Of a stretch of 64,000 bases of DNA, positions 18,805 through 58,019 are shown piece after piece. How positions within the stretch are numbered: position 1 is the stretch's first letter; every line of letters begins with the position of its first letter. This DNA is from Fibrobacter sp. (GTDB lineage Bacteria; Fibrobacterota; Fibrobacteria; Fibrobacterales; Fibrobacteraceae). The DNA is taken from positions 62,001-126,000 of the forward strand of contig JAFPWY010000004.1 in assembly GCA_017412605.1 (NCBI GenBank), read 5' to 3'. A program made the translations under genes and the position numbers. Below the pieces are notes generated by a model. That model searched no databases. It was not told the origin of the DNA and worked only from the letters and a program-made list of their open reading frames with translations.

Positions 18805-19923
18805 TTATTCCGTACGCTTAACAACGATAGGTACAATTGTCGTCGGGAAATCGCCATCCTTGTCCGTAGCAAACACGGGGATAATCTTCGTAGAATCCGG
18901 GAGGTCCTCTTCAAAGCTGAACGTGCCATCCGGGTTCAGCGGGAACGGTTCGCCGCGCACCTGCAAATGGGCATCAGGGCGAGTTCCGCCGTAAACGATC
19001 AGGCGCGTCTTGACCCACAAGAAGAAATCCTTACCATAGTTGACAGAATCCTTCGGGGCAGCAATTTCGTTGCTCTTGAGCGCCGCACTGGAAAGTGCGC
19101 CGGAGAACATGGACTCCGAAGAGCTGCCCAGGCGGAGGCTGTTGAGCCAAGACTCGGCAGTCGTGCTGGAAAATCCGGAGCTCATGAAGTTGCCATTCAC
19201 GCTGCCACCCAGCGAAGCACGGACAAATTCGTCGTCGAAGGATGGAACCGTTGCGCTCTTGTCGAACGTGAGCACCGGGGACGATTCGAGAATCGGCATG
19301 AACTGATTTCCGTCAACAGAGCCGAGGACAGCCATGCAGTTGTTCCCAACAGGATTTTCGACATACCAGCTGCGGGCATCGGCAGGAACTTCCACATCGT
19401 GGAATTTGCGCTTCTTGCCACGCTGTACGGTCAAGTCGTCCGTGATGTCAAACAGGCGCAGCACAAGTTTGCCCTTGCCATTCTTGGAGCGCTTCACACG
19501 CTGTTCAGAAACTTCCCAGAAAGCATGCAGCCAGTTCGGATCCTTCTGCATGAGCACAAGATACTCGGCGTCGAAGGGCTGTTCCAGCTTGGCGGCAGGA
19601 GTCTTGACAGCGGGCTTTGCTGCGGGTTTTGTTACAGGCTTTGCGGCGGCCTTGGCGGCCGGCTTCGGTGCGGGTTTAGCAGCCGGCTTTGTGGCAGGCT
19701 TGGCAGCAGCTTTTGCAGCGGGTTTCGTTGCCGGCTTGGCGGGAGCCTTGGCAGCAACCTTGGCAGGAGCCTTAGTGGCGGCCTTCACAGGAGCCTTTGT
19801 AGCAGGCTTTGCGGCGGGCTTGGCAGCCGTCTTCGGCGCAGGCTTAGCAGCCGGCTTTGCAGCAACCTTTTTCACACTCTTTGTTTCTGTTTTCGTGTCC
19901 TTAGCATTCTTCTTAACAGCCAT
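18805..19923 (-). CDS. DUF4912 protein with long Lys/Ala/Pro (histone H1-like) N-terminal tail
   Basis: 372 residues. Residues ~1-115 are almost only Ala, Lys, Pro and Thr in short repeats (AAKPA, TKAPA), a strongly basic, disordered tail like bacterial H1-like proteins. Residues ~120-220 match DUF4912 (DAEYLVLMQKDPNWLHAFWEV), with a further conserved strand region RLIVYGGTRPDAHLQVRGEPF near the end. A good AGGAGG site precedes the ATG. It is directly upstream of the GH57 branching enzyme. The domain may bind glucan or act as a scaffold; the tail may bind nucleic acid or polyanions. Both ideas are inference. Confidence 0.78.
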   Translation of the reverse strand: MAVKKNAKDTKTETKSVKKVAAKPAAKPAPKTAAKPAAKPATKAPVKAATKAPAKVAAKAPAKPATKPAAKAAAKPATKPAAKPAPKPAAKAAAKPVTKPAAKPAVKTPAAKLEQPFDAEYLVLMQKDPNWLHAFWEVSEQRVKRSKNGKGKLVLRLFDITDDLTVQRGKKRKFHDVEVPADARSWYVENPVGNNCMAVLGSVDGNQFMPILESSPVLTFDKSATVPSFDDEFVRASLGGSVNGNFMSSGFSSTTAESWLNSLRLGSSSESMFSGALSSAALKSNEIAAPKDSVNYGKDFFLWVKTRLIVYGGTRPDAHLQVRGEPFPLNPDGTFSFEEDLPDSTKIIPVFATDKDGDFPTTIVPIVVKRTE

Positions 19924-23975: not shown

Positions 23976-24001
23976 AGCCATCCCCGAACCCCGAGCCTTC
24001 T

Positions 24002-24029
24002 ATCGTCTATCGTCTTTCGTCTTTCGTCT
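24002..24029 (+). repeat. Heptamer array A: four ATCGTCT/TTCGTCT units
   Basis: Four consecutive 7-bp units (ATCGTCT twice, TTCGTCT twice), preceded by a related GCCTTCT. It ends 7 bases before the TATATTTG box of thrC. Member of a family of 7-bp-period arrays in this window. Confidence 0.8.
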
Positions 24030-24036
24030 ATTTTAC

Positions 24037-24068: not shown

Positions 24069-25409
24069 ATGGCCCAATTTAACGCGCATTTTAGGAACAT
24101 CAACGGGGACGATACCTACCCGCTGACCGACGTCATTTACCGCAGCAAGGTGGACGGCAGCCTGCTCGAAGTCGAACACGACCGTGCAGCACTCGCCAGC
24201 AAGAGCCCCGACGAATGGAAGAAGCTCTTCGCCGAACGCCGCATGAGCTTCGAACCCGCCGACATGAGCGGTATCTGGAGCAAGCGCGAAATGGTGCTCC
24301 CCGACATGCCCATCGAAGACATCGTGACGATGCGCGAAGGCTGGAGCCCGCTCTTTGACGCCGCCCCGCTCGCCAAGGAACTGGGCATCAAGAGCCTCAA
24401 GGTCAAGCTTTGCGGCAACTCCCACACGGGTAGCTTCAAGGACCTCGGCATGACGGTTCTCGTGAGCCAGGTGAACCACATCATCAAGAAGAAAATTCAC
24501 GAAATCGACGCCGTGGCCTGCGCCTCTACCGGCGACACCTCCGCAGCCCTCAGCGCCTACTGCGCGAAGGCCGGCATCCCGAGCATCGTGTTCCTGCCCG
24601 CTGGCAAAACGAGCGTCGCCCAGCTGATCCAGCCGATTAGTAACGGCAGCATCGTGCTCGCCCTCGACACCGACTTCGACGGTTGCATGAAGATTGTCCA
24701 GCAGGTCACCGCCGACAACCGCATCTACCTCGCCAACTCCATGAACAGCCTCCGCGTGGAAGGCCAGAAGACGATTTCTCCGGAAATCTGCCAGGAAATG
24801 GGCTGGAAGGTGCCCGACACCGTGATTATCCCGGGCGGCAACCTCGGCAACGTGAGCGCTCTCGCGAAGGGTTTCGAAGACTGCAAGGCCATGGGCCTTA
24901 TCGACCGCATTCCTCGCATTATCGTGGCCCAGGCCGAAAACGCCAACCCGTTCTTCCAGGCTTACGAACGCGGCTTCGACAAGCTCGTTCCGATGCAGGC
25001 CAAGAAGACGCTCGCCTCTGCCATCCAGATCGGTAACCCGGTCAGCTATCCGAAGGCCGTGCGCGCCATCCAGAAGACGAACGGCATGGTCGTAAGCGTC
25101 ACCGAAGAAGAGCTCGCCAATGCCGCCCACCGCGGCGACCGCATCGGTCTCTACTGCTGCCCGCACACTGGCGTGGCTCTCGGCGCCCTCGAAAAACTCG
25201 TGGCCGCAGGCAAGATCGACAAGGAAGAGAACGTGGTCGTCATCAGCACGGCACACGGCCTCAAGTTCACCGAATTCAAGGTCGGCTACCACGAAAAGAA
25301 GCTCGAGAACATAGCCTCCAAGTTCGCGAACCCCGTGTTCAAGGCTCCGGCAGACCTCGGCGCCGTCATGGACATCTTGAAGAAAGAGATGGCGGAAAGA
25401 AGGAGATAA
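24069..25409 (+). CDS. thrC: Threonine synthase
   Basis: 446 residues. PLP-dependent fold type II. The Schiff-base Lys is at about residue 124 in GNSHTGSFKDLGM; the phosphate-binding glycine-rich PGGNLGNVSALAKG loop and ASTGDTSAALSAYCAKAG are typical of the longer, yeast/E. coli-like threonine synthases that start with an N-terminal extension (YPLTDVIYRSKVDGSLLEV). Converts O-phosphohomoserine to threonine in the cytoplasm. No hom or thrB neighbour. Its codon use is strongly biased, as in highly expressed genes. Confidence 0.92.
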   Translation: MAQFNAHFRNINGDDTYPLTDVIYRSKVDGSLLEVEHDRAALASKSPDEWKKLFAERRMSFEPADMSGIWSKREMVLPDMPIEDIVTMREGWSPLFDAAPLAKELGIKSLKVKLCGNSHTGSFKDLGMTVLVSQVNHIIKKKIHEIDAVACASTGDTSAALSAYCAKAGIPSIVFLPAGKTSVAQLIQPISNGSIVLALDTDFDGCMKIVQQVTADNRIYLANSMNSLRVEGQKTISPEICQEMGWKVPDTVIIPGGNLGNVSALAKGFEDCKAMGLIDRIPRIIVAQAENANPFFQAYERGFDKLVPMQAKKTLASAIQIGNPVSYPKAVRAIQKTNGMVVSVTEEELANAAHRGDRIGLYCCPHTGVALGALEKLVAAGKIDKEENVVVISTAHGLKFTEFKVGYHEKKLENIASKFANPVFKAPADLGAVMDILKKEMAERRR

Positions 25410-25410
25410 G

Positions 25411-25440
25411 GGGCTAGAATCTAGGATCTAGAGGCTAGAG
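25411..25440 (+). repeat. Heptamer array B: CTAGNNN units after thrC
   Basis: Units read as CTAGAAT, CTAGGAT, CTAGAGG, CTAGAGT in exact 7-bp register, starting 2 bases after the thrC stop codon and ending just before its terminator. Confidence 0.8.
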
Positions 25441-33902: not shown

Positions 33903-34343
33903 GACTGCAATTTAGTAAATAGTGATTAGAGGTTAGGGGCTAGGATCTAGGGGCTAGGGGGTATGAGGTCGCGACCTTCGGTCGCTTTGAGGCTCGAGCT
34001 CGGTCGCTAACGCCCCCTTCGAGGAGTGAGGCAGTAGGAAGTGAGAGGTTAGAATCTAGGGTCTAGGGAGAGATATCACGGCTTCGCCGTCTTATATTGA
34101 CGCACGAAGTGCGTGACTCTTTTCACTAGTCTCTAGCCTCTAATCTCCAGTCTCTATTTTCGTGCCTAAAGCCTCATAGCTCATTGCTCACAGCTCATCG
34201 CTCACTGCTCATACCTCGAGCCTCGTGCCTAAAATTTGTATAAAAATGTAAAATTTACGCAGATGAACGTAAAATCTGCGAAATATTCAGCCACTTGCCT
34301 TATAAATTCTTATTTTGTGTGCATCTAACTCTAAGGAGCATAT
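33903..34343. other. 441-bp intergenic region filled by a compound heptamer/hairpin element
   Basis: Between divergent dnaE and a small lipoprotein gene. Almost all of it is accounted for by the heptamer arms and mini-hairpins described separately; the last ~110 bases hold AT-rich promoter-like sequence (TAAAATTTG near 34231) and an AAGGAG site before the lipoprotein ATG. No coding frame is credible. Confidence 0.7.
33915..34230. repeat. Heptamer compound element C with inverted arms and hairpin core
   Basis: Left arm in 7-bp register: TGATTAG, AGGTTAG, GGGCTAG, GATCTAG, GGGCTAG. Then mini-hairpins with 3-nt loops (GCGACC-TTC-GGTCGC, CGGC-TTC-GCCG, CGCAC-GAA-GTGCG) separated by more heptads (GTGAGGC, AGTAGGA, GGTTAGA, ATCTAGG). 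The right arm is in complementary sense (TCTAGCC, TCTAATC, TCATAGC, TCATTGC, TCACAGC, TCATCGC, TCACTGC, TCATACC). A 28-bp core at 33965-33992 recurs at 36338-36365 with two differences. Confidence 0.8.
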
Positions 34344-36121: not shown

Positions 36122-36157
36122 AACTTTCGTCCCAGTTTTTTCGCTGGGATAAGTTCT

Positions 36158-36241
36158 GCGGTCGTGGTGGAATTGGTAGACACGCTAGCTTGAGGTGCTA
36201 GTGGGAGCGATCCCATGACAGTTCAAGTCTGTCCGACCGCA
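36158..36241 (+). tRNA. tRNA-Leu(GAG), copy 1
   Basis: 84 nt. Acceptor GCGGTCG / CGACCGC with discriminator A; anticodon stem CTAGC-TTGAGGT-GCTAG with anticodon GAG; long class II variable arm TGGGA-gcga-TCCCA; T arm ACAG-TTCAAGT-CTGT. No encoded CCA. Probably read through from secG and followed by a terminator. Confidence 0.96.
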
Positions 36242-36248
36242 TACAAGA

Positions 36249-36284
36249 GTCCGCCCTGCTAACAAGCGGGGTGGATTTTTTTGC
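36249..36284 (+). terminator. Terminator after tRNA-Leu copy 1
   Basis: TCCGCCCTGCT-AACA-AGCGGGGTGGA pairs with small mismatches and is followed by a T7 run. Confidence 0.75.
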
Positions 36285-36472
36285 GCCGAAGGCGCCGCAA
36301 TGAGGCCGGGCCTTCGGCCCTCTGAGGTATGAGGAGTGAGGCCGCGACCGTCGGTCGCTTTGAGGTGTGAGCACGGCGCTTTGCGCCTCCGAGTCTAGAA
36401 CCTCACGCCTCGAGCCTCGAACCTCACTGCTCACAGCTCACTGCTCATAGCTCACCGCTCATTGCCCATTGC
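36283..36472. repeat. Heptamer compound element E upstream of murD
   Basis: Mini-hairpins GCGCC-GAA-GGCGC, GGGCC-TTC-GGCCC, GCGACC-GTC-GGTCGC and GGCGC-TTT-GCGCC alternate with heptads (CTGAGGT, ATGAGGA, GTGAGGC). A long right arm of 7-bp units follows (CTCACGC, CTCGAGC, CTCGAAC, CTCACTG, CTCACAG, CTCACTG, CTCATAG, CTCACCG, CTCATTG, CCCATTG) that runs directly into the TATATTAT box of murD. Confidence 0.8.
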
Positions 36473-36480
36473 TATATTAT
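36473..36480 (+). promoter_or_regulatory. Putative promoter box (TATATTAT) for murD
   Basis: TATATTAT abuts the last heptamer of element E and lies 18 bases before the ATG at 36499; a GAGG site is in between. Confidence 0.35.
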
Positions 36481-36498
36481 CCCCCGAGGTTTTTTATC

Positions 36499-37851
36499 AT
36501 GCAGAATTCAATTGTTGCCCCCGTTGGCGTTTTGGGCTTTGGCGTTGAAGGCCAGAGCACGTTCAACTATCTTGTCCGCAGCGGAATCAAGGACATCGTC
36601 GTGATGGACAAGAATCCGGTCAGCTTGCCGGAAGTGCCCGCTGGCGTAAACGTGAAGACGTTCAGCGGCGACAACTACATGGACGGTCTCAAGGACTGCG
36701 TGACCGTGGTGCGCTCGGCAGGCGTGTACCCGATGAGCCAGGAACTGTTCAAGTTCCAGATGAACGGCGGGCTCATGACGAGCCAAATCCAACTATTTTT
36801 AGAACAAACTAAATCAAAGAAGGTCGTGGGCGTCACGGGCACGCTCGGCAAGGGTTCCACCGTAAGCATGATCAGCCACATTCTTACAAAGAGCGGCGTG
36901 AACAACGAGATTGGCGGGAACTTCGGCGTGCCGGCACTCGACCTGCTGGAAACCGAGACTTCCGACCGCGTGAGCATCCTCGAGCTTTCGAGCTTCCAGC
37001 TGATGACGCTTTCCCTGTCGCCCGACGTGGCCGTGGTGCTGCGCGTTTCGACGGAGCACCTGGACTGGCACAAGAGTGTCGAGGAATACCGCGATGCAAA
37101 GGCGAACCTCGTCCGCTGGCAGAAACGCGGCGGCACCTGCGTCTTCTTGAAAGACGCCGCTCCGACGGCGAAGATTGCCGCCGAGAGCCCGGCCACGACC
37201 AAGTATGCCATCACGCTCGCTGATGGGCCGAACTTCGGTGACGGAGACGCCGTCATCAACGGCGCCACCCTCACCATTGACGACGAAAAATTGTTCCTTG
37301 CAGACTGCAAGGTGCGCGGCATCTACCAGCTCGAGAACATGGCGGCGGCGACCCTCGTCGTGAAGGCGCTGGGCATCAAGGTGGCCGACGCATTCGAAGC
37401 CCTCAAGAGCTACGAGACGCTCCCCTTCCGCATGGAATTCAAGGGCGAAAAGAACGGCATCGAGTTCTACAACGACAGCTACGCCACACGTCCCGACGCG
37501 ACGATCGCCGCCACAGCAAGCATGAAGCGCCCCTTCGCGCTCATCCTCGGCGGCTCCGAGAAGAACGCCGACTTCACCGAGCTTTCGAAAATTCTCGTGG
37601 AGGAACGCCCGAACCTCAAGCGCATCGCGCTCATCGGCGCGACCGCGCAGCGCATGCTTGATTCGCTCCAGCAGGCCGGGCTCCAGATTCCTGCGAACAT
37701 CTTCCCCACCCTGGAAGAAGCGTTTGCCGACAGTCTAGCCATCGGAAAGGGCGGAACGGTCATCATGAGCCCCGCCTGCGCCAGTTTCGGCCTGTTCAAG
37801 AACTACAAGGTCCGTGGCCAGGTCTTCGACAAACTGGTTGCCGAGCTGTGA
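36499..37851 (+). CDS. murD: UDP-N-acetylmuramoyl-L-alanine:D-glutamate ligase
   Basis: 450 residues from the ATG at 36499 (an upstream in-frame ATG at 36469 lies in the promoter). Mur ligase motifs are VLGFGVEGQSTFNYL, the P-loop GVTGTLGKGSTVSM, ELSSFQL, STEHLDWH (with the Lys region after it), NDSYATRPDAT and LILGGSEKNADF, then the C-terminal MSPACASFGLFKNYKVRG, which is specific to MurD. The P-loop has an extra residue pattern (GTLGKGST rather than GTNGKT/ST). Adds D-Glu to the peptidoglycan precursor. It is outside a dcw cluster here, between two identical tRNA-Leu genes. Its stop codon forms part of heptamer array F. Confidence 0.93.
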   Translation: MQNSIVAPVGVLGFGVEGQSTFNYLVRSGIKDIVVMDKNPVSLPEVPAGVNVKTFSGDNYMDGLKDCVTVVRSAGVYPMSQELFKFQMNGGLMTSQIQLFLEQTKSKKVVGVTGTLGKGSTVSMISHILTKSGVNNEIGGNFGVPALDLLETETSDRVSILELSSFQLMTLSLSPDVAVVLRVSTEHLDWHKSVEEYRDAKANLVRWQKRGGTCVFLKDAAPTAKIAAESPATTKYAITLADGPNFGDGDAVINGATLTIDDEKLFLADCKVRGIYQLENMAAATLVVKALGIKVADAFEALKSYETLPFRMEFKGEKNGIEFYNDSYATRPDATIAATASMKRPFALILGGSEKNADFTELSKILVEERPNLKRIALIGATAQRMLDSLQQAGLQIPANIFPTLEEAFADSLAIGKGGTVIMSPACASFGLFKNYKVRGQVFDKLVAEL

Positions 37852-37965
37852 GCGGTTAGCCATGAGCGGTGAGCGGTGAGCGGTGAGCAGCGAGCGGTGA
37901 GCAATGAGCCATGAGCACCGAGTTAATACTCACTCCTCATTGCTCATAGCTCATTGCTGATAGCT
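37850..37965. repeat. Heptamer array F: TGAGCGG-type units with inverted second arm
   Basis: About ten units in exact 7-bp register (GCGGTTA, GCCATGA, GCGGTGA three times, GCAGCGA, GCGGTGA, GCAATGA, GCCATGA, GCACCGA), then GTTAATA at the turn, then complementary units CTCACTC, CTCATTG, CTCATAG, CTCATTG, CTGATAG. The first unit contains the murD stop codon TGA. The two arms can fold on each other around GAGT-TAAT-ACTC. Confidence 0.85.
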
Positions 37966-38065: not shown

Positions 38066-38149
38066 GCGGTCGTGGTGGAATTGGTAGACACGCTAGCTTG
38101 AGGTGCTAGTGGGAGCGATCCCATGACAGTTCAAGTCTGTCCGACCGCA
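38066..38149 (+). tRNA. tRNA-Leu(GAG), copy 2
   Basis: 84 nt, identical in all positions to the copy at 36158-36241, with its own promoter box and terminator. Confidence 0.96.
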
Positions 38150-41778: not shown

Positions 41779-41780
<2 letters not shown>

Positions 41781-41827
41781 TTATCAGTTGTGAGTTGACA
41801 GTTATGAGTTATGAGTGATGAGGATCT
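41779..41827 (+). repeat. Heptamer array G: AGTTATG units at the tgt stop
   Basis: Seven units in 7-bp register: AGTTATC, AGTTGTG, AGTTGAC, AGTTATG, AGTTATG, AGTGATG, AGGATCT. The first unit starts inside the tgt stop codon TAG. Confidence 0.8.
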
Positions 41828-50412: not shown

Positions 50413-51210
50413 TTAAAGGGATTTTGGATGGAACGACTTGCGGTGTTCCGGAGTTTGTCCTAAACGGCGGATGGCGTCCAGATGAGCTTTTGTCCCGTAT
50501 CCGGCGTGTTTGTCGAAGCCGTAACCCGGGTACTTTTCTTCGAGTTTGTCCATGTACCGGTCACGGAAAACCTTGGCCAAGATAGATGCGGCAGAAATGC
50601 TCGCGATGCGACCATCGCCTTTGACGATGGGCATCTGGATTTCGGCCGGGATGCCGTGGATTTTGAGATTACCGTCGACAGCTATGAGCAGTGAGCTATG
50701 AGCTATGAGCGGTGAGCCGAGAATTTCTGCGAAGGAGCCTTTCACTTCAACGGGAATTTCGGGGGCGGATTCGTTCAGGCCGGGCAGGCCCAAAGCCTGC
50801 AAGGCCCGGCGCATCGCCAAAAAGTCCGCCTCCAAGATATTCATCTCATCAATTTCAGCGACGCTTGCGCTTGCAATCGCATAACAGGCGCACGCCTCCT
50901 TCACAGCATCAAACATCGCCTCGCGTTTGGGCCGAGTGAGCTTTTTCGAGTCGTTCAGTTCGGGCATGATGTCCGGGGCTTTAAGCACAGCGGCACAAGC
51001 CACCACAGGGCCCGCCAGCGGACCACGCCCCACCTCGTCAATACCCACCACGATTACGTTTTTGCTAGCATCCGCAGCAGCCGACGCAAAAAGGTCAAGC
51101 GAATCCACGCAACCCACCAATGCCGGGTCAGCAGCGAATTTGCGCAAAGCCACCTCCCCCTCCACGGGGGTCTCGACGTTTTCTAGGAATGCGGGCAGTT
51201 TGAATTTCAT
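50413..51210 (-). CDS. rnhB: Ribonuclease HII with an in-frame heptamer insertion
   Basis: 265 residues. The catalytic DExD-type pattern begins VVGIDEVGRGPLAGPVVACAAVL (Asp-Glu pair) and continues with ELNDSKKLTRPKRE and SISAASILAKVFRDRYM. Compared with the usual ~200 residues it has a ~50-residue N-terminal extension and an insert LIAHSSLLIA. The insert is encoded by the heptamer array at 50681-50722, which lies in frame without a stop. Removes ribonucleotides from DNA and RNA primers. 48 bases after purN on the same strand. Confidence 0.9.
   Translation of the reverse strand: MKFKLPAFLENVETPVEGEVALRKFAADPALVGCVDSLDLFASAAADASKNVIVVGIDEVGRGPLAGPVVACAAVLKAPDIMPELNDSKKLTRPKREAMFDAVKEACACYAIASASVAEIDEMNILEADFLAMRRALQALGLPGLNESAPEIPVEVKGSFAEILGSPLIAHSSLLIAVDGNLKIHGIPAEIQMPIVKGDGRIASISAASILAKVFRDRYMDKLEEKYPGYGFDKHAGYGTKAHLDAIRRLGQTPEHRKSFHPKSL
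50681..50722 (-). repeat. Heptamer array H inside the rnhB coding sequence
   Basis: Six units in 7-bp register on the plus strand (GCTATGA, GCAGTGA, GCTATGA, GCTATGA, GCGGTGA, GCCGAGA). 42 bp equals 14 codons, so the array keeps the rnhB frame and adds SPLIAHSSLLIA to the protein. Confidence 0.85.
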
Positions 51211-51217
51211 AAGTTTA

Positions 51218-51252
51218 GGGGCTAGAGACTAGGATCTAGAGGCTATGAGGTC
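51218..51252 (-). repeat. Heptamer array I between purN and rnhB
   Basis: Units GGGGCTA, GAGACTA, GGATCTA, GAGGCTA, TGAGGTC in 7-bp register, followed by the inverted repeat GAGGTC-AA-GACCTC next to the purN stop. Confidence 0.8.
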
Positions 51253-51258
51253 AAGACC

Positions 51259-51843
51259 TCACAGCTGAGCGGCGTATTCCTTAATGGTCTTCCAGTACAA
51301 GTTATGTTCCTGTTCGAGAACGCGGGCGGCAAGCACCTCCGGCGTATCGTCGGGCAAAACAGGAACCTTCGTCTGGGCAAGAATGCGACCGCAGTCAATC
51401 TTCTCGTTCACCAAGTGGACCGTCGGACCCGATTCCGTATCGTGGGCGGCAATCACGGCCTCATGCACGTGGATGCCCCAGAAGCCCTTACCCCCGTACT
51501 TCGGCAACAGCGACGGGTGGATGTTCAGGATGCGGTCCGGCATACGCTGGATCATACAAACGGGCAAAGCCTTCATGTAGCCTGCAAGAATCAAAAGGTC
51601 TACATTGTAGAGGTTCAGCACATCCAGCATCGCCGCATCGTATGCAGCCGGGTCAGGATGAGTCTTGCCAGAAATATGGTAAACAGGTATTCCATAGGAA
51701 CGGGCATGCTCGACCGCACCGCAAGCCCCGTTATTGCTGATAAGGAACTTGCACTGGGCATCGAGGTCGCCCTCGCCAATATGGTCGATAATCGCCTTAA
51801 AGTTGCTTCCACCACCGGAAGCCATCACGCCTATTTTAAACAT
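51259..51843 (-). CDS. purN: Phosphoribosylglycinamide formyltransferase
   Basis: 194 residues, normal for PurN. Motifs: VMASGGGSNFKAIIDHI, a SNNGACGAVEHARSYGI strand, LAGYMKALP, ILNIHPSLLPKYGGKGFWGIHVHEAVIAAHDTESGPTVHLVNEKIDCG, which holds the catalytic Asn-His-Asp set. Transfers a formyl group from 10-formyl-THF in purine synthesis. TATATTTG lies 5 bases before the ATG, so its mRNA is probably leaderless. Probably co-transcribed with rnhB. Confidence 0.94.
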   Translation of the reverse strand: MFKIGVMASGGGSNFKAIIDHIGEGDLDAQCKFLISNNGACGAVEHARSYGIPVYHISGKTHPDPAAYDAAMLDVLNLYNVDLLILAGYMKALPVCMIQRMPDRILNIHPSLLPKYGGKGFWGIHVHEAVIAAHDTESGPTVHLVNEKIDCGRILAQTKVPVLPDDTPEVLAARVLEQEHNLYWKTIKEYAAQL

Positions 51844-55968: not shown

Positions 55969-58019
55969 CAACGGGCAGCCTTTATCGAAACAATCAAGGC
56001 AAAATCCAAGTGGATAGCGGGCACTCAGAAATTTATTTCGAAAGCGGGAAAATTAAGGAACAGAACGACTGGAAAAACAAACAGCCCATAGCTAGCAAAA
56101 GATGGAATGAAAATGGAATACTGATAATAGAACTGGACTATCAAAAAAAATGCACCGAATACTGGGATAACGGAAAAATAAAACAAAAAGGAACAGGAAT
56201 CCTATTCAGGGAAGACGGTTCAAACAACTGCAGTGTAGATAGCGGGCGCTCGGAGTTTTATTTTGAAAGCGGAAAAATTAAGGAACAAAAAGACTGGAAG
56301 GACAAGCAGCCCGTTGCTCAAAAAGAATGGAACGAAGATGGAACATTGATAAAGGAAACCGTGTTCCCCGATTATTTCAAAGAATACTGGAGCAATGGAA
56401 AATTAAAATTGATTTTGACAGGCCTTCTTTATAAAGATAATCAAGGCATTCTCTGGATGGATAGCGGGTGGTCAGAAGTTTATTCGGAAAGTGGAAATCT
56501 TCTAGAGCAAAAAAAATGGAAGGACAAATATGTTGTCGTATGCAAGAAATGGAACGAAGACGGAGTGTTGACAAAAGACATAAATTTCCCAGAATCTCTT
56601 AAAGAATACTGGGACAATGGAAAAATAAAAGGAACGGGAGCAGGCCTTATTTATAGAGACAATCAAGGTAATTTCAGTATGGATAGCGGGCACTCGGAAA
56701 CATATTTTGAAAATGGAAAAATACACCAGCAAAACGACTGGAAAAATAGACAGCTCGTTGTTCAAAAAGAATGGAACGAAAAGGGTGTGCTAATCAGAGA
56801 ATCTGATTTCCCAAAATATGTAAAAGAATATTATGATAATGGGAAAATAAAGAAAGAGATAACAGGACTATATTGGACTTCTCCGACTAAAGTCGACGTA
56901 GAAAATGGTTCTATAAAGGAATACTATGAAAACGGGCGGATGAAGCAACATTCTATCTACAAAGAAAAAGAACTCTATTCCTATAAGGAATGGCGAGAAA
57001 ACGGAACCTTGACTTATGAATGGGATATCACGACAAGCTATTTCAAGCAGTATAACGAAAAAGGAACCCTTCTTCTAGAAATAAAAGGATATACAGGCAA
57101 AAAGGGAGATACGATAGAGAACGGCTATTCAAAAATGTACTTCAATAACGGGAATCTTCAATTCCAAGAAGAATATAAAGATAAAAAAAAGATAGGCCAA
57201 AAAATATGGCATGAAAACGGAAAACTAGAATACGAATTTTTGTTCCCGAAATACGAAAAGATTTATTCCAGCAACGGTAATCTACATATTGAAAAAAAGG
57301 GAACATTATATTACGACGACCAGAACAAAATCCAAGTACAAGACGGATCCTGGAAAGCATATTACGACAACGGACAACCGAGTGTACATGAAAACTACAA
57401 AGAAAAAAAACTGACCGACCAAAAAATATGGTATGAAAATGGGATCCTAAAGAAAGAAGGCGATGTGTCAAAAGGATTTCATAAAGAATATTACCCTAGC
57501 GGCAAAATTGCCAAGGACGTTTCAGGGAAATTCCACTACAAAGACAACACTGTTATTTTAGAAAACGGCACCAAGCGATCCTGGAGCGAAGACGGAACTC
57601 TAAAAATCGATCTTGTTTTCCCGAAATACGAAAAACTTTATTTTGATAACGGATCACTTTTTGTTGAAGAGGTGGGAACTTTATACTATGACGACCAAAA
57701 TAAAATCCAAGTACAAGACGGCTTCGTAAAAATATATTGTGAAAACAAAAAACCAAAACTACAAAAAAATTATAAAGATAGGAAACTAGTCGGCAAAACG
57801 GTGTGGAATGCATCCGGGATCGTAACTATCTCTGCAGAACTGCCAAACCGCTACAGGGAATTTTACGATGACGGAAAAATCAAGATAGAAGTCACCGGAA
57901 CCATTATCGAAGAAAACGAAGGATTCAAAATAAAGGATGGCGTATATAACGAATACGACCCCAACGGAAAAATCACTAATTCTGCGACCTACAAGGATTT
58001 CCAGATAATTTCTGAATGA
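55899..58019 (+). CDS. MORN-repeat (YwqK-type) protein, 3' part of the same gene
   Basis: 706 residues from a TTG at 55899, but sequence in this frame is open back to the A6 tract at 55838, so it is the continuation of the lipoprotein starting at 55558. About ten degenerate ~58-residue repeats follow the pattern EYWDNGKIK...TGxLYxDNQG...VDSGHSExYFENGKIKEQNDWKxKQPVAxKxWNEDG. MORN_2 repeats are common in proteins annotated as YwqK-family antitoxins; here the signal peptide argues for a surface or periplasmic binding protein. Frameshift makes full-length expression uncertain. No toxin partner is adjacent. Confidence 0.7.
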   Translation: MVLEFVFPKYIKEYWSNGNTKQIATGSLYRNNQGKIQVDSGHSEIYFESGKIKEQNDWKNKQPIASKRWNENGILIIELDYQKKCTEYWDNGKIKQKGTGILFREDGSNNCSVDSGRSEFYFESGKIKEQKDWKDKQPVAQKEWNEDGTLIKETVFPDYFKEYWSNGKLKLILTGLLYKDNQGILWMDSGWSEVYSESGNLLEQKKWKDKYVVVCKKWNEDGVLTKDINFPESLKEYWDNGKIKGTGAGLIYRDNQGNFSMDSGHSETYFENGKIHQQNDWKNRQLVVQKEWNEKGVLIRESDFPKYVKEYYDNGKIKKEITGLYWTSPTKVDVENGSIKEYYENGRMKQHSIYKEKELYSYKEWRENGTLTYEWDITTSYFKQYNEKGTLLLEIKGYTGKKGDTIENGYSKMYFNNGNLQFQEEYKDKKKIGQKIWHENGKLEYEFLFPKYEKIYSSNGNLHIEKKGTLYYDDQNKIQVQDGSWKAYYDNGQPSVHENYKEKKLTDQKIWYENGILKKEGDVSKGFHKEYYPSGKIAKDVSGKFHYKDNTVILENGTKRSWSEDGTLKIDLVFPKYEKLYFDNGSLFVEEVGTLYYDDQNKIQVQDGFVKIYCENKKPKLQKNYKDRKLVGKTVWNASGIVTISAELPNRYREFYDDGKIKIEVTGTIIEENEGFKIKDGVYNEYDPNGKITNSATYKDFQIISE

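Follow-up and report, generated by a model that had tools for sequence, protein, structure and literature searches.

Period-7 repeat arrays and palindromic elements between the genes of Fibrobacter

Introduction

An excess of heptamers in bacterial genomes has been reported since 2007, without explanation. REP and BIME elements, with their RAYT transposases, are palindromic, intergenic, present in high copy number and located near gene 3' ends; we know of no REPs with period-7 arms. The repeat motifs in the P6b stem of the Nostoc trnL intron are of heptanucleotide form. These motifs form stem-loops and belong to two classes, one of which takes the place of the other from lineage to lineage at a constant site (PMC4476775).

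Xanthomonas genomes carry about 185 arrays each, of period 7 and mostly intergenic, with the unit GGGAATC or GGGANTN, the latter with five conserved and two free positions (PMC4692102). These arrays are rare between divergent ORFs and form 70-75 convergent inverted pairs; their G-rich strand is the coding strand downstream of an ORF and the non-coding strand upstream, and at shared sites both length and sequence differ between related species (PMC4692102). The heptameric repeat of Nostoc is GGGGA(C/T)T (PMC4692102). TAACTGA heptamers are intergenic in Beggiatoaceae, cyanobacteria and Bacteroidetes, consist mostly of a single exact unit, show 7-nt indels between close strains and are mixed with other heptamers in some genomes (PMC4679880). 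In Beggiatoaceae they lie just upstream of start codons, and a Beggiatoaceae genome has one indirect TAACTGA repeat only (PMC4679880).

Text searches of the literature outside the subscription journals found no paper on heptad repeats in Fibrobacter. We analysed a stretch of 64,000 nucleotides of a Fibrobacter sp. genome (assembly GCA_017412605.1, contig JAFPWY010000004.1, positions 62,001 to 126,000), hereafter the window. A first-pass annotation had described period-7 arrays at eight loci of the window, akin to the heptanucleotide repeats of cyanobacteria. The two are indeed related in kind, and Fibrobacter has a real period-7 system: its arrays are a new case of the repeat class known in Xanthomonas, cyanobacteria and sulfur bacteria.

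Period-7 arrays are found across the genome

All eight loci carry a period-7 signal, which is marginal at 51218-51252 when this locus is taken alone. Tandem Repeats Finder reported period 7 at seven of these loci; scanning the window for lag-7 log-odds gave 10 segments of at least 14 bits, all inside 23,978-50,722. Identity at lag 7 ranges from 0.50 to 0.95 per locus, against 0.20-0.27 at lags 5, 6, 8, 9 and 10. The first-pass annotation had named a signal no stronger than in shuffled sequence, or an assembly artefact, as grounds for refutation. The observed lag-7 value is matched by at most 0.15% of shuffles, except at 51218-51252 (2.5%), where the units are nevertheless those of the shared CTAG family. 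Independent assemblies of other species of the genus, several of them 99-100% complete and in few contigs, also contain such arrays, which makes an assembly artefact unlikely.

The arrays had been counted as eight in 27 kb and confined to 24.0-51.3 kb, which turned out to be a matter of local density. We scanned 1.185 Mb of the window's genome (G000; contigs C1 and C3 and most of C9; the genome encodes 115 Fib_succ_major domains, which makes the assignment to Fibrobacter sound). As in Xanthomonas, there is an excess at period 7: 70 segments reach at least 24 bits at lag 7, versus 0-3 at lags 5, 8, 10, 11, 13, 16 and 17; lag 14 yields 37. A Markov shuffle of C3 gave no lag-7 segment of at least 17 bits. 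At this threshold the sample holds 98 arrays, which scales to about 290 per 3.53-Mb genome. They occur throughout the genome; the window's first 24 kb belong to an array-free gap of about 58 kb in the contig.

Arrays and elements of the window

An array of TCGTCTN units at 23978-24031 (- strand; AGACGAN family on the purine strand) was found by Tandem Repeats Finder and by the lag-7 scan. A CTAGRNN array of the YTAGRRN family lies at 25414-25440 (+), just 3' of a PALP-family gene (24069-25409). Element 1 opens with a purine arm detected by the lag-7 scan, in which YTAGRRN units are followed by TGAGG (33913-33969, +). It continues with a short TTCG hairpin module framed by TGAGG units (33963-33996, no strand assigned), a second purine arm of TGAGGNN, AGTAGRN and YTAGRRN units (34021-34068, +), a dispersed palindromic core of two hairpins (34066-34126, no strand assigned, its consensus reading on the - strand here) and a pyrimidine arm that runs from CTAG-type through YNGCTCA to CCTCG-type units (34117-34230, purine strand on -). 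Directly downstream of a tRNA-Leu(gag) gene (36157-36242, +), element 2 combines a purine side of TGAGGNN units and short hairpin modules (36283-36399, +) with a pyrimidine arm of CCTCG/CCTCA, then GCTCAYN units (36401-36472, -). Element 3 pairs a purine arm of TGAGCNR units (37843-37919, +) with a pyrimidine arm of CTCAYNG units (37929-37965, -), and the stop codon of a Mur-ligase-family gene (36469-37851) is a TGA of the array. An AGTTATG array at 41779-41822 (+) is abutted by the TAG stop of a queuine tRNA-ribosyltransferase gene. Finally, a short YTAGRRN array with an inverted TGAGGTC/GACCTCA end lies at 51211-51273 (+); at the orthologous site of the relative G030, both arms are made of other heptad families.

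The arrays had been taken as intergenic, which is mostly correct, with some genic cases. The TGAGCNR array at 50680-50722 (+), listed earlier as 50681-50722, lies inside the RNase HII gene (50413-51210, -), whose sense strand is the pyrimidine strand of the array; the G030 orthologue is rearranged at the array's place. Translated (GSPLIAHSSLLIAVDG), this array is a variable insertion within a housekeeping enzyme. Long ORFs also contain AGACGAN arrays at C3:150813-150844 (L042), C9:77096-77126 (L127) and C9:199416-199448 (L133). These could be phase-variable, since a 7-bp change in copy number would shift the frame. Two other tandem repeats lie within ORFs of the window: a degenerate 12/36/48-bp repeat at 19603-19869, probably a low-complexity protein tail, and a 222-bp repeat of 2.5 copies at 56231-56780, in a long + strand ORF. 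Rfam matches within the window are limited to two tRNAs. The two tRNA-Leu(gag) genes (36157-36242 and 38066-38149) are identical over 84 bases and flank the Mur-ligase-family gene and two heptad elements; several relatives likewise have tRNA-Leu(gag) in two neighbouring copies.

Arms, hairpin modules and a dispersed core

The arrays often make up the two arms of imperfect inverted repeats. Adjacent arms that lie on opposite strands have a strong polarity: across three genomes, 66 pairs run purine-then-pyrimidine and 5 the reverse (P = 1e-14). Of the 66 pairs, 29 have two arms of one family, versus 16.5 when permuted. The free letters, however, do not correspond between the two arms of one element, as expected for shuffled units rather than for snap-back copying of one arm from the other, which we rejected. 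Short TTCG-type hairpins, whose frame of TGAGG...TTTGAGG is constant, lie between the arms, and some elements have the two-hairpin core there. At the threshold used, most arrays are one-armed, and most lack the core. We counted 36 core copies in the window's genome, 58, 65, 26 and 11 in four relatives, and 0-2 in 56 other genomes; the core is thus confined to one clade.

The first-pass annotation had suggested that the repeats build intergenic structure. This applies to two-armed elements: the folding z is -2.9, -3.9 and -5.0 for the three large elements of the window and -6.5 for the core together with its arms. It does not apply to array regions as a set, whose median z (-0.57, versus -0.89 in control intergenic regions) indicates that they fold no better overall, so that strong structure is limited to the two-armed elements. 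In the fold of 37843-37965, TGAGC blocks are matched to GCTCA blocks in runs of six pairs, with a single mismatch between one run and the next, and this predicted pattern matches the TGAGCNR code.

Further palindromes accompany these elements. A composite element at L035:15655-16027, in two tandem copies, has a GGAGATCCCCGC...GCGGGGATGACA hairpin adjoining heptad arms; several core elements likewise have a related palindrome, GTCATTGCGAGG...GAAGCAATCTCC, directly next to them. Another palindromic module, CCTTTGACCACTTAGTGCTTTAGCACTTATGTGGGCATGGCCACCTTTAGGTGG, is 54 bp long and is located at TA|G within heptads (L085:952-1006; also in L280, L312, L315, L320, L098, L101 and L102), on either side of the core. 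It is present in 15 copies in G030, 15 in G012, 10 in G071 and 2 in the window's genome, with few elsewhere and in other contexts. Its distance from the core is nearly constant, which points to few insertion events, and we dropped the idea of nine independent insertions.

Turnover at orthologous sites

We compared about a dozen orthologous array-bearing sites, mostly against draft genomes, between species at 88-95% coding identity. Arrays differ by indels of 7 and 14 bp and by blocks of 54, 136 or 251 bp, which begin and end within heptads or hairpin modules. At the main site of the window, the central 174 bp are 99.4% identical between G000 and G030, while the flanks are about 92% identical. 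G030 has the same core, one array shorter by two units, the 54-bp module at CTA|GAG, and a further block of 251 bp with the same hairpin module at its borders. At this site G017 has short arms only, without the core, and G012 has different heptads. Other sites also combine conserved flanks with different unit families in related species. At the junction upstream of a gene beginning MAKIKVK, 19 genomes, G000 and G017 among them, have flanks that align as one uninterrupted piece; about 100-450 bp are present there in G030, in G012 and in several species less closely related. The junction is occupied by heptad arms, of families that differ, in G030, G062, G001, G007, G021, G010 and others, and most inserts read have heptad arms starting with the stop codon of the upstream gene. 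Read from these alignments, intergenic positions are kept while their content is exchanged; the donors and breakpoints of the exchanges are putative.

Such presence and absence between intact flanks would also be expected if the heptads were the terminal arms of MITE- or REP-like elements mobilised by a transposase. The dispersed core, with its many identical copies in one clade, and the 54-bp module at TA|G, in two positions relative to the core, argue in the same direction. However, most arrays contain no core, and the clean filled/empty pair shows no clear target duplication; TA at both element ends is suggestive, at one gene junction only. We found no match to PF01797 (Y1 transposases of RAYT or IS200/IS605 type) in the window's genome and none to PF13358 (DDE_3 of IS630 type) in 12 genomes of the genus, which argues against transposases of the two families screened. 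No phage homology of the element was found. As an account of the arrays transposition is possible but doubtful, while transposition by some enzyme is a serious rival for the core element.

Unit families and the order of units

The purine-rich strand of the arrays is 66% purine. Unlinked loci have unit families in common, namely TGAGCNR, YTAGRRN, YGAGGYN, AGACGAN, ATRATKG, AGTAGRM and GTGGTTN. Among 127 TGAGC units in register, the core is 97-100% fixed at each of its five positions, position 6 is near random (1.9 bits of entropy) and position 7 is a purine in 97%. The units had been described as drifting; they fall instead into a few discrete families, each with a fixed core and one to three free positions, that recur at unlinked loci.

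The order of units is also non-random. In YTAGRRN arrays, identical units are found at lag one 13 times and at lag two 25 times, versus 20.5 and 13.6 expected from within-array shuffles. Close relatives show the same pattern (14 versus 19.3 at lag one, 21 versus 12.2 at lag two), and a third species has 10 versus 5.4 at lag two; pooled over data sets, the two lags differ with P = 4e-7. Second neighbours are thus enriched for identity and immediate neighbours are not, so that the arrays do not record single-unit slippage; they fit two-unit (14-bp) steps.

Growth by slippage followed by mutation, as assumed in the first-pass annotation, would make the arrays plain heptanucleotide repeats degraded by point mutations. 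Consistent with this, indels between orthologous arrays are multiples of 7, some congeners have nearly perfect arrays such as (TTAGAAC)n, and the published heptamer excess has been ascribed to polymerase contact length (PMC4692102). Yet mutation should strike all seven positions rather than leave five fixed and one near random, and identical neighbours are at or below the shuffled expectation. Moreover, slippage cannot account for one code recurring at dozens of unlinked loci, or for the replacement of one family by another within a single site. We regard this explanation as unlikely.

Position relative to genes

Arrays occur in 8 of the 124 intergenic regions between divergent genes, in 13 of the 68 between convergent genes and in 45 of the 288 between tandem genes; divergent regions are depleted relative to all others (58 of 356, P = 0.006). 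The arrays show no strand bias in tandem gene pairs, and we rejected a strand-specific (Rho-type) use. Element edges lie at both kinds of gene end, 3' and 5', in each case with the purine strand turned inwards, and the forward placement upstream of start codons typical of TAACTGA was not found. About two-thirds of the edges that face a gene 3' end overlap it or lie at most 40 bp away.

Many arrays contain stop codons. The purine strand has stops in all three frames in 72 of the 98 arrays, versus 36 on the other strand; the gene stop falls in the first unit of the array in 30 of 43 cases (30, 7 and 6 for units 1, 2 and 3), and the TAG share at array-borne gene stops is 60% versus 31%. Polarity is the same at the two kinds of gene end (60:14 versus 44:14, P = 0.52), and TAG-first units are also found at 5' edges (5 of 19, versus 15 of 46). 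The stops therefore look like a by-product of element ends, and we rejected a role in translation stop. TAG is common at element ends of both kinds, but inside the periodic arm (compare the GTAG foot of REPs).

A putative terminator or mRNA 3'-end role is possible, and the folding of two-armed elements, the proximity to gene 3' ends and the scarcity between divergent genes are consistent with hairpins that would act as bidirectional terminators or mRNA stabilisers; but the folding of array regions overall does not exceed that of controls, most arrays are one-armed, polarity is the same at 5' ends and avoidance of promoters explains the position too, so that we consider this reading very unlikely.

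Distribution and comparison with known repeats

Across the genus, YTAGRNN arrays number from 0 to more than 300 hits per genome, with controls near 0, and GCTCAYN arrays come for the most part from three closely related species. Where both are lacking, other heptads can be present, for example ATGTGRN. A search with the CTCA unit had suggested a restriction to few species, which we dropped as other families are wider in the genus. In public genomes, at least 118 stretches contain five TGAGNNN units, and those listed come from Bacteroidota, Cyanobacteria, Chloroflexota, Proteobacteria, Planctomycetota and other groups. Among the matches listed in this TGAG-selected sample, 24 are purine-first and 7 are not (P = 0.003). 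Lineage specificity, as first proposed, thus holds for certain unit families and for the one dispersed core; it fails for the class, which is present in many phyla and had already been published for Xanthomonas, Nostoc and Beggiatoaceae.

The Fibrobacter arrays resemble the Xanthomonas repeats in their heterogeneous units of fixed and free positions, in being mostly intergenic with few between divergent genes, and in their convergent inverted pairs of the same polarity. Unlike them, the Xanthomonas/Nostoc type has one G-rich unit and is G-quadruplex-capable; four runs of at least three G within reach occur in just 1 of 98 Fibrobacter arrays, and we rejected a G-quadruplex reading. Fibrobacter also differs from this type in having seven or more unit families, with hairpin modules embedded in the elements and a core that is dispersed. 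Like the TAACTGA repeats, the arrays are intergenic, occur in distant phyla and show 7-bp indels; TAACTGA itself is absent among the Fibrobacter unit families. The Nostoc P6b repeats are alike in their stem-loops and in the replacement of repeat classes at a constant site, and differ in occupying one locus inside a group I intron. The elements are similar to REP and BIME in being palindromic, intergenic, of high copy number and near gene 3' ends. To the known class, Fibrobacter adds coexisting families, embedded hairpins and a dispersed core, two-unit periodicity, and family replacement at conserved sites.

Discussion

The unit code, the polarity, the two-unit periodicity, the modular cores and the turnover at conserved sites are features of the sequences themselves. 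We interpret them, tentatively and with somewhat more doubt than belief, as modular palindromic intergenic elements whose heptad arms are seams for recombination or template switching. The repeated fixed cores of 4-5 bp would act as dispersed microhomology, through which recombination or polymerase template switching could join, duplicate and exchange modules between sites. Units with a mutated core would cease to be copied, and the core would stay fixed while the other letters are reshuffled. The TGAGCNR code also fits pairing between arms, with TGAGC opposite GCTCA, R opposite Y and N as the mismatch. The elements fill the space between genes, often from the stop codon onwards, and are scarce between divergent genes; we found no evidence of a host function beyond that of a tolerated spacer.

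Several points weigh against heptad arms as seams. The many identical core copies could equally be moved by some transposase, and a binding protein or selection on hairpins could hold the cores fixed. Microhomology exchange alone explains neither period 7 nor the purine-first order. A broader version of the seam reading, which we find quite doubtful, would make heptad arms general-purpose recombination seams: a self-propagating code of dispersed 5-bp cores with a 7-bp register would mark intergenic sites while the content of these sites is exchanged within and between species, and would have arisen in many phyla with the same purine-first polarity.

The genus Fibrobacter has many sequenced species and several unit families side by side, and this is what makes the rules of such arrays visible. 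Any explanation has to account for fixed cores with free letters, two-unit steps, purine-first polarity and family replacement. With these rules, slippage, transposition, hairpin selection and microhomology exchange become separable at the strain level.
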